A stretch of 64,000 bases of DNA from Dehalococcoidia bacterium. GTDB taxonomy: Bacteria; Chloroflexota; Dehalococcoidia; Tepidiformales; Tepidiformaceae. Below, in pieces: positions 2,327 to 7,228 of the stretch (position 1 is the stretch's first letter; every line of letters starts with the position of its first letter). The notes under the pieces were generated by a model that saw only the letters and a list, made by a program, of their open reading frames with translations, did not search any database and was not told where the DNA came from. The stretch spans positions 1 through 64,000 of the forward strand of contig JAJEIT010000072.1 of the NCBI GenBank assembly GCA_022827945.1, in the 5' to 3' direction. Position numbers and translations under genes: made by a program.

Positions 2327-2352
2327 GAAACCCCCGCCGGAGCGGGGGTTTC
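2327..2352 (-). terminator. Strong hairpin, probable terminator of the zinc-ribbon gene
   Basis: An 11-bp perfect stem (GAAACCCCCGC / GCGGGGGTTTC) with a 4-base loop lies 24 bases past the stop of the minus-strand gene ending at 2377. A second inverted repeat (ATGCCCGTC / GACGGGCAT) sits next to it at 2291-2324. There is no long U-run, so termination is inferred from stem strength and position. Confidence 0.6.
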
Positions 2353-2595: not shown

Positions 2596-2672
2596 GGGGA
2601 ACTCTCCCTGGGTTCCGTGAGGCAAGATCATCTCGGCCTCGAAGCGAGCAGCCTGCTCGCCAGGCCTTCCTA

Positions 2673-2810
2673 GTGCATACGGGGTTAGCTGACGGGTTCG
2701 GGCGGAAGGTTGCCCTAGGGACTGGAGAGGTCCCATTCACCCCTGAAGGTGGTTCCCCCGCTGCGCCATGCGGCGCACTCTGCAGGTTTCGGTTTTCACC
2801 GAGCGCACGC
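2673..2810 (-). promoter_or_regulatory. ydaO/yuaA-type c-di-AMP riboswitch
   Basis: Read on the minus strand, this leader holds the hallmark blocks of the ydaO/yuaA RNA in order: GCGGGGGAACCA, then GGGGTGAAT, then CCCGAACCCGTCAGCTAACC, with GTGC/GCAC closing the outer stem. The order and near-identity of the blocks make chance unlikely. A GC hairpin (GCGAGCA/TGCTCGC, 2654-2670 region) and a GGAAC/GTTCC pair enclosing the Shine-Dalgarno site lie between the aptamer and the zinc-ribbon start at 2595, and could be the expression platform. This family is known to sense cyclic di-AMP and usually turns genes off; the sense here is not shown. Confidence 0.87.
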
Positions 2811-2828: not shown

Positions 2829-2858
2829 AAGCTAGCAGCCCCGAGATCGGCCTGTCAA
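2829..2858 (-). promoter_or_regulatory. Sigma-70-type promoter of the riboswitch transcript
   Basis: On the minus strand a consensus TTGACA (2858-2853) and TAGCTT (2834-2829) are 18 bases apart, placing the transcript start near 2822, just upstream of the riboswitch. The rest of 2859-2941 is comparatively AT-rich and holds no gene I can support. Confidence 0.7.
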
Positions 2859-2941
2859 GGACTTTGGGAAGGAAATCACAAATAAATGCCGAAATTCGTC
2901 GATATTCGTCCCGTGGAGCCCTGTATCCGCCCCTGATATGG

Positions 2942-4996
2942 CTAGGCGGCAACGAGCGCGGGCGCGATTACCGCCCCCGCCGCCCCCAGGAACACCGCCA
3001 GCGCCAGCCCTGTCTCCGCCGGCACGCCCTGCTTGCCGCCGCCCCTCCCCGCCAGCGCCAGCCCCGCGATCAGCGCCGCCAGCGCCGCCCCCGCAGCCAC
3101 CTCCCAGCCCGCGTTCCCCCCGACCGCCGGCCTCACGATCAGCGCCGCCGCCACCGGAACCGCCGCCGCCACCAGCACCGCCCCCAGCGTCCGCGCCACC
3201 GCCGCGCGCCGCCCCGCCGCCGCCAGCCCGATCGCGGCCAGCAGTCCCGTCAGCGCGACCAGCGCCCCCAACCCCACCAGCCGGTCGAGCCGCAGCGGCG
3301 GTAGCGAGGGGAACGGCAACGGTCCGCCCGCGATCGCCCTGGTGCCCTCGTCGAGCCGTCCCTGCTCGGCGCGAAGCTCCAGCAGGCGCCGCGTCTCCGC
3401 CTCCCCCGCGAGCAGGAGCTGCGGCACGTCGGCCGCGTGAACGTCGTGCCGGTCGAGCAGGTCGCGGTACGAGGCCAGGTCGTAGGCCGTCTGCGCCTCG
3501 ATGTCCTCGAAGTCGGGCACGACCCCGAGCTCGGCCGCGATCTGCACGTACCTCGGCACGTCGCTCGCGGCCACGTTCCCGAGCTCCGTCCGCACGGCCA
3601 GCAGCAGCGCCCCCGCCAGGGCCGCCCCCACGAGCGCCGTCCAGCCGATGCCGTGGCACCACCCCGGCGCCAGCGCTCGCTGCGCCGTCGCCGTCAACGG
3701 TCCGAGCGGCATGGCCGCCGGGGCTGCTTCCTCGCCCTCGGCCGGCTCGGCTGCTTCCCGGGCGCGCTCCGCCAGTGCGACCGCGTTCGCCGCCCCCGAC
3801 CCAAACGCGCGGATCGCGACCGCCGCCGGGGCAAGCGCGAGCGCCCCCGCCGCCGCCATCGCCACCCCGTACAGCGCCGTCGCCGTCGAGCTGACTCCCT
3901 CGATCTCGACCTGCCACCCGAACGCGAACGCCGCCACCAGGCCGGCGCCCGTCAGCAGCGCGAAGGCGGCTCCCGTCCCCCGGTAGCTCGACCCGTCTCC
4001 CACGATCGCCCGTCCCGTCACGAACACCACGGCGCTCAGGCCCGCTCCCAGCAGCCCCGCGCCTGAGAACCACCACCGCCCCTCCTCCAGCATCGCGACC
4101 GGCGCGAGGAACGCCAGCGCGCCGCCCACGACCGCCGTGATCGCGTACCCCGCCACCACCGACCGCCCCGCGTTCCGCATCGCCCGCGTCCAGAACGGGA
4201 GTGTGATCCCTGCGATGGTCGCTGCGGCCAGCCCCAGCGCCATCACCACCAGCGGCGTCACGATCCAGACCAGGTCGTCGCCGAGCTGCGCCATCGGCGC
4301 CCCCAGCACGAGCCCCGCGCCGCCTGCCGCCGCCATCAGCGCCACCGCGTCCGCCCCGCCCGCCGCGCTCGCCGCCGCCTCGACCGCTTCCGCCTCCGGC
4401 CCCTCCTCCTCGTCCGCGTTCCCGCTCGCCGCGAGCAGCCGCGCCGCCATCGCCGTCAGGGCCGCCCCCGCCCCTGCCCCCAGCACCAGGAACGCCGCCT
4501 CGCTGCCCGGGATGTCCGCCAGGCGCGTCGCGATGCCGTACAGTCCCGCGACCCCCGCCACCGCCAGCGCTCCGCCCGCGAGCGCGGGCGCCGTGCCTGC
4601 CCACAACGTGATCGCCAGCGCCTGGCGCAGCGTCCGGTCCGCTGCCGTCGCCGCCCGTTCGCTCGCGCGCTGACCCAGAGCCAGTCCCGCGGCCGCCGTC
4701 GCAGCCGCCGCCAGCGCTCCGGCCAGCACCGCCAGCCCTGCCACCGCGCCCGACTCGACGCCGTCGCGATACGCCCCCACCGCCGCGCCGGCCCCTGCAC
4801 CGCCCGCCAGCCCCAGCGTCACGCTGAGGATGACGAACCGCCAGATGTACGAGCTGCCCAGTTCGCGGGTGCGCTCCGCGGTGGCGGCCACGCCCTCGCC
4901 GGGGCGCGTCCGCAGGAGGATGTCGAGGGCGAACCAGGTGGCGAAGACGACCGCCACCACCGCTGCGAGCGGAGTCGCGAGCTGCGCCACGATCAC
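2942..4996 (-). CDS. Divergent membrane pyrophosphatase paralog lacking catalytic motifs
   Basis: A 684-residue, alanine-rich polytopic membrane protein that follows the H+-PPase layout of its neighbour. The segment GAVAGLAVLAGALAAAAT through GQRASERAATAADRTLRQAL matches the HppA region GAILSASAGYLGM through RANVRTAAKAQEGLNPAL, and LYGVAMAAAGALAL matches YGIALAAVGMLAPL. The acidic signatures are gone: no GADLVGKVE, no DNVGDNVGD, and ATDAYGPVADNAGG is replaced by AIRAFGSGAANAVAL. The C-terminal GDTVGDPFKDTSG is absent too. It starts with GTG 51 bases after hppA and is probably co-transcribed. It should be unable to hydrolyse pyrophosphate; a partner or regulatory subunit role is inference. Confidence 0.75.
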   Translation of the reverse strand: MIVAQLATPLAAVVAVVFATWFALDILLRTRPGEGVAATAERTRELGSSYIWRFVILSVTLGLAGGAGAGAAVGAYRDGVESGAVAGLAVLAGALAAAATAAAGLALGQRASERAATAADRTLRQALAITLWAGTAPALAGGALAVAGVAGLYGIATRLADIPGSEAAFLVLGAGAGAALTAMAARLLAASGNADEEEGPEAEAVEAAASAAGGADAVALMAAAGGAGLVLGAPMAQLGDDLVWIVTPLVVMALGLAAATIAGITLPFWTRAMRNAGRSVVAGYAITAVVGGALAFLAPVAMLEEGRWWFSGAGLLGAGLSAVVFVTGRAIVGDGSSYRGTGAAFALLTGAGLVAAFAFGWQVEIEGVSSTATALYGVAMAAAGALALAPAAVAIRAFGSGAANAVALAERAREAAEPAEGEEAAPAAMPLGPLTATAQRALAPGWCHGIGWTALVGAALAGALLLAVRTELGNVAASDVPRYVQIAAELGVVPDFEDIEAQTAYDLASYRDLLDRHDVHAADVPQLLLAGEAETRRLLELRAEQGRLDEGTRAIAGGPLPFPSLPPLRLDRLVGLGALVALTGLLAAIGLAAAGRRAAVARTLGAVLVAAAVPVAAALIVRPAVGGNAGWEVAAGAALAALIAGLALAGRGGGKQGVPAETGLALAVFLGAAGAVIAPALVAA

Positions 4997-5047: not shown

Positions 5048-7138
<2,091 letters not shown>

Positions 7139-7228
7139 GGTTCCCCCAGAGACAGATGCTGAGCGGCGTCGCGCATCGCGGGGGATCCCCCTCGGATGGC
7201 AATCGCAGCAGGTTATGGGCCGCAAGGC

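Follow-up and report, generated by a model that had tools for sequence, protein, structure and literature searches.

A c-di-AMP riboswitch paired with a conserved small zinc-ribbon gene in Dehalococcoidia

The window analyzed here, a stretch of 64,000 nucleotides of Dehalococcoidia DNA, carries on its minus strand a c-di-AMP (ydaO/yuaA) riboswitch aptamer (positions 2660-2794) and a gene encoding a 72-residue zinc-ribbon protein (2377-2595), which starts 64 nt past the aptamer match on the same strand. A strong hairpin after the gene (2327-2352, minus strand; −25.2 kcal/mol, z = −4.77) is the probable end of the transcript. Beyond it lies the next gene of this strand, encoding a [2Fe-2S]-like (ferredoxin-like) protein (1828-2247). 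The original prediction had described the zinc ribbon as the only downstream gene; it is indeed the one directly downstream, with the caveat that the [2Fe-2S]-like gene follows on the same strand and the hairpin at 2352-2327 stands between the two. Elsewhere in the neighborhood, the minus strand has two adjoining genes (2942-4996 and 5048-7225). One of the pair encodes a full ion-pumping pyrophosphatase (863 bits), the other a divergent relative of 684 residues, whose similarity to the pyrophosphatase family is weak. In several relatives of the window (L074, L081, L085, L087, L092, L097, L110, and L112), cobalamin riboswitches were seen on the opposite strand near the zinc-ribbon locus.

The riboswitch was matched from end to end by RF00379 in an Rfam scan (minus strand, 2794-2660; model positions 1 to 134 of 134), with 87.6 bits against a gathering score of 38 (E = 4.2e−19), and apart from one tRNA this was the sole Rfam match in the window. 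The covariance model thus bears out the ydaO/yuaA assignment made originally for positions 2673-2810; the element is the same, and only its ends were off by about 15 nt. Conserved blocks of the aptamer include GGGGUGAAU and CCGAACCCGUCAGCUAACC. When 40 ortholog aptamers were aligned, 93% of the cells in the Rfam helices and pseudoknot were paired, and compensatory changes occupied 184 cells, versus 59 after shuffling. The covariation score (0.412 versus 0.162 shuffled) was reached by none of 500 shuffles, and slid versions of the helices scored only 0.05 to 0.10, far below the real register. The pseudoknot joins CCUUCC (2704-2709, minus strand), a loop segment of the last hairpin of the aptamer, to GGAAGG (2665-2670, minus strand), and its two strands covary between lineages (CCUUCC/GGAAGG, GCCUUUC/GAAAGGC, and CUGAUUCG/UGGAUCAG). 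At least six contiguous pairs could be formed in 45 of 63 distinct leaders, versus a mean of 26 and a maximum of 35 when the tails were swapped among orthologs. On this comparative evidence, positions 2660-2794 are a genuine c-di-AMP riboswitch of a known class, firmly identified and predicted to bind its ligand.

The promoter that had been proposed upstream of the element was also recovered. It consists of a −35 hexamer TTGACA (2853-2858, minus strand), kept 5′ of the aptamer in most orthologs, and, after a spacer of 18 nt, an extended −10 element, TGC-TAGCTT (2829-2837, minus strand; −10 at 2834-2829). The same layout recurs before the aptamer in most orthologs, and those of Tepidiformaceae show TGnTAGnnT at 17 to 18 nt from TTGACA. 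A generic consensus promoter scan of the window did not report the TTGACA/TAGCTT promoter. Further 5′, comparison of the orthologs revealed a CRP/FNR-like palindrome, TGTGA-N6-TCCCA (2865-2880, minus strand), matched equally well in none of 200 shuffles of the upstream region of the window, which may provide a second transcriptional input. Among the leaders inspected (L036-L115), most of those from Tepidiformaceae had TGTGA-N6-TCnCA 22 to 24 nt before TTGACA. In other families a similar site was found near the transcription start, including in the leaders of family f21 that lack the riboswitch.

The protein has the cysteine pattern CPKC-x16-CIMC and ends in the tail RQRRRQPSHGKLRL. Its family is characterized by CPxC and CxxCG cysteines flanking an E-x-DW-x-G core and by a tail of the form RQRRRQPSHGK[LI][RK]L. 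This C-terminal tail (RRRQPSHGKLRL) is strongly basic, almost invariant among orthologs, and, the cysteines aside, the best conserved part of the protein. Over pairs of orthologs, codon differences within the tail were overwhelmingly synonymous (12,865 synonymous versus 1,444 nonsynonymous), which implies strong purifying selection on a real, constrained protein. No curated family claimed it: the best match was 21.7 bits in Pfam (cutoff, 29) and 15.3 in NCBIfam (cutoff, 31.3); the curated cutoffs of the TFIIB, RPB9, LysW, FmdB, and rubredoxin-like families were not reached; and searches of NCBIfam, PHROGs, and solved structures returned only subthreshold zinc-ribbon matches. The AlphaFold2 model, of moderate confidence (mean pLDDT, 73; pTM, 0.44), presents a ribbon, a single helix (46-55), and an unstructured tail. 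A fold search with this model gave no match passing an E value of 0.001.

A protein so small and so conserved probably has one specific job. The ribbon weakly resembles those of RNA polymerase and TFIIB, and its best neighbors in fold and sequence, none of them significant, are RPC10-type ribbons. We suggest, with low confidence, that the protein may use its ribbon and basic tail to bind nucleic acid, RNA polymerase, or the ribosome, as an accessory factor of osmotic adaptation. It could instead be a small protein linked to metal or redox chemistry, rubredoxin-like or a LysW-like carrier, given weak profile matches to rubrerythrin, rubredoxin-like domains, and LysW. We regard this alternative as rather unlikely, since it leaves aside the conserved, strongly basic tail outside the cysteines and the fact that the best fold matches, although none is significant, are RPC10-type ribbons. 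To our knowledge, no rubredoxin has a C-terminal tail as strongly basic as this one.

The association of riboswitch and gene was assessed in relatives, starting from the protein. Of 80 loci retrieved by protein patterns alone, 76 gave an RF00379 match in Rfam scans, just 5′ of the gene and in its orientation. The remaining four showed no riboswitch even in a permissive Rfam search; one of these is a second paralogue (L068) and another lies on a short contig (L047). The patterns used for this first set cover some of the C-terminal tail, and a profile was therefore run over 294 genomes of the class as a further test. Full-length matches scored above 100 bits and were separated by a gap from generic zinc ribbons, at 51 bits and below. 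RF00379 was upstream of 87 of the 106 full-length orthologs compared, in 13 of 15 families; 86 had it at 24 to 112 nt, and a direct scan added the last (L337). Given some three riboswitches in each genome, we estimate that chance would place one within 150 nt upstream of a given gene with a frequency of ca. 1e−4. The riboswitch was absent before the gene in family f21 (all genomes seen; in three of them judged from the genome-wide scan only), in both genomes of f50, and in G051, G090, and G012, as well as before the second paralogue of G016. The protein can therefore function without it. The gene is almost always present in a single copy, and no full-length member was found outside the class among 301 genomes of the phylum. 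A divergent zinc ribbon lacking the tail, in G037, is also located behind a riboswitch, here with a clear terminator (L339).

The original prediction could have failed if another gene followed the element in relatives; the orthologous zinc ribbon follows it in 76 of 80 loci and in 87 of 106 whole-genome comparisons. A related possibility is that the true target lies further downstream, having moved away in the genus of the window, with the zinc ribbon as a bystander. Many relatives do carry an ABM-like gene on the same strand, and after it one for a response regulator. These neighbors occur in just 33 and 29 of the 80 loci, respectively, whereas the zinc ribbon is constant, and the genus of the window has the ferredoxin-like gene in that place, behind the strong hairpin. 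Only the close group of the window, with its seven loci, was found to have this ferredoxin-like neighbor. We thus consider a bystander role highly improbable. Since the pairing is kept over most of the class, the c-di-AMP signal very probably has the zinc-ribbon protein as a dedicated target. The proposed link between an uncharacterized protein and c-di-AMP signaling is well supported by this conservation, and the same genome is predicted to make the ligand. The single diadenylate cyclase domain found there (PF02457 [DAC], E = 7.3e−42) belongs to a CdaA-like gene, and a CdaR-like gene comes next.

How the aptamer is read out is less clear in the window than in its relatives. After the aptamer comes a terminator-like hairpin, GGCCUGGCGAGCAG...CUGCUCGCUUCGAGGCC (2635-2666, minus strand), identified by folding and comparison of leaders, and its folding z score in the window is only −0.8. 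An intrinsic terminator would have a U-run at its end, and this is missing after 2666-2635. In many relatives the hairpin ends in 5 to 7 U; the three that were tested had z scores between −2.4 and −3.1. By a simple pattern, a U-run follows it in 27 of 76 orthologous leaders. In the genus of the window the hairpin (GGCCUGGCGAGC...) is kept, but most members have lost the U-run, which makes termination doubtful there and leaves the output step unsettled. A long-range antiterminator between GCGCUCGGU, conserved 5′ of the aptamer, and the 5′ arm of the hairpin was considered and dropped after inspection by eye, because the complementarity is lost in several orthologs. Closer to the gene, the ribosome-binding site GGGAG (2608-2604) is in the loop of a short hairpin, GGAAC...GUUCC (2598-2616, minus strand). 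This hairpin folds no better than shuffled sequences, and it shows no covariation because it is identical in all the members of the genus seen. When the aptamer was forced in a constrained fold, a crude calculation that ignores the energies of pseudoknot and ligand, the ribosome-binding site of the window became more open, its probability of being unpaired rising from 0.27 to 0.60. The site also opened in other members of the genus, except for L043, where it went the opposite way.

Studied members of the class offer a guide to the direction of control. As a rule for the class, the ligand promotes the terminator. This OFF mechanism has been established experimentally in Dehalobacter, where the pseudoknot strand and some of P1 can alternatively pair with the left arm of the terminator, and c-di-AMP lowered read-through in vitro (PMC9337991). 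In Corynebacterium glutamicum, a member of the class without terminator most likely exerts OFF control at translation (PMC9960051). By analogy, we infer the same direction for the genus of the window, where low c-di-AMP most likely means expression, as in the class. When c-di-AMP is high, i.e., when osmolytes or potassium are not short, the ligand would lock the aptamer together with its pseudoknot, the hairpin beyond would form, and expression of the zinc ribbon would be cut. Under osmotic stress, when c-di-AMP is low, the 3′ part of the free aptamer would interfere with the hairpin and the protein would be made, together with the osmolyte enzymes under the sister riboswitches. In many relatives the hairpin, with its U-run, is an intrinsic terminator, in agreement with the OFF mechanism of the class; in the genus of the window, where the U-run has largely decayed, control would probably be at ribosome binding, or mixed.

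The OFF direction is not established in the window itself, because the U-run is missing and the ribosome-binding site is more open under the aptamer constraint. These two observations, the second of which extends to the other genus members except L043, would also fit a real riboswitch that in this genus is an ON switch or only a weak modulator. Such a role seems unlikely to us: the members studied experimentally in PMC9337991 and PMC9960051 are OFF switches, the folding leaves out the energies of pseudoknot and ligand, and L043 goes the opposite way. Taken as a whole, a genuine riboswitch with OFF control and a one-domain zinc ribbon as its dedicated and evolutionarily constant target is, in our judgment, the likely explanation of the locus.

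The source genome (2.85 Mb) has three RF00379 riboswitches, located before the zinc ribbon, before a KamA-like lysine 2,3-aminomutase (L002), and before an 81-residue ORF followed by dnaX. Ku and LigD were rejected as targets of the riboswitch at L002, since the gene downstream is the KamA-like aminomutase. The riboswitch, 81-residue ORF, and dnaX arrangement (riboswitch at L003 1501-1629) was seen at seven loci of the genus, the orthologs being L212, L224, L228, L229, L231, and L232. We then counted 152 riboswitches in the source genome and its relatives by their first recognized downstream gene. The 72-residue zinc ribbon was the target of 33, followed by another, unrelated zinc ribbon of ca. 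60 residues (20), a 163-residue protein without recognized function (15), an MFS transporter (15), an unknown or cytidylate-kinase-like protein (13), KamA (12), SulP (7), the 81-residue ORF (7), GT2 (5), and trehalose-phosphate synthase (GT20; 4). At least three further types of small zinc ribbon are found behind RF00379 in relatives: the 60-residue type (20 loci), a 75-residue type (3 loci), and one divergent single case. The ca. 60-residue family has the pattern CPEC...RDRYCPGCH..TPEWRYG (L010-L016, L018, L021, L023, L024, L029, L031, L129, L132, L134, L149, L174, L187, and L189). The 163-residue protein has conserved histidines and no Pfam match (L127, L137, L140, L170, L173, L186, L203, and others).

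The sister targets (aminomutase, trehalose-phosphate synthase, transporters, and small zinc ribbons) point to a regulon of osmotic adaptation. Targets in osmolyte synthesis and transport agree with the role of c-di-AMP in other bacteria (PMC9337991, PMC9960051), and lysine 2,3-aminomutase is an experimentally established target of the class in Dehalobacter (PMC9337991). It is possible, and we propose it tentatively, that c-di-AMP governs osmolyte genes and tiny zinc ribbons in this class, the present protein being the core member that would act on the transcription or translation machinery; if so, it would represent a previously unrecognized protein arm of the osmotic response. The known targets of RF00379 are transporters, osmolyte enzymes, and cell-wall hydrolases, and small zinc ribbons are a theme apart from these. 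Riboswitches offer one of the few routes from sequence alone to the pathway of an uncharacterized gene, and here the conservation of the pair in 13 families makes the assignment to the c-di-AMP pathway unusually firm. A literature search returned no paper linking the RF00379 class to a zinc-ribbon gene, with the proviso that a 2013 survey of targets may list one, and for a link of the class with Chloroflexi it yielded only a passing mention. The riboswitch class is known; its zinc-ribbon target family is new, conserved, and uncharacterized, and the association is solid. The pair is also present in a cultured species, Tepidiforma flava, whose leader (L048) has the U-run, and is thus experimentally accessible.

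Among known zinc ribbons, those of RPC10/RPB9, TFIIB, TFS, and LysW share with the protein the CxxC-x16-CxxC spacing and a weak profile similarity, whereas all these matches are below curated cutoffs and do not include the RRRQPSHGKLRL tail. Among the riboswitches, that of C. glutamicum nlpC (PMC9960051) resembles the element of the window in missing a canonical terminator, but its target is a cell-wall peptidase. The tandem Na+/c-di-AMP riboswitch of Dehalobacter sp. CF (PMC9337991) has its counterpart in the KamA-like gene behind RF00379 in the source genome and relatives (L002), whereas the target of the window copy is another gene, with no second riboswitch before it. Compared with the RF00379 leader of Bacillus subtilis kimA, the element of the window has lost the U-run and controls a 72-residue zinc ribbon, but it has the same aptamer, the same pseudoknot between the last loop and the 3′ tail, and, in many relatives, a terminator.
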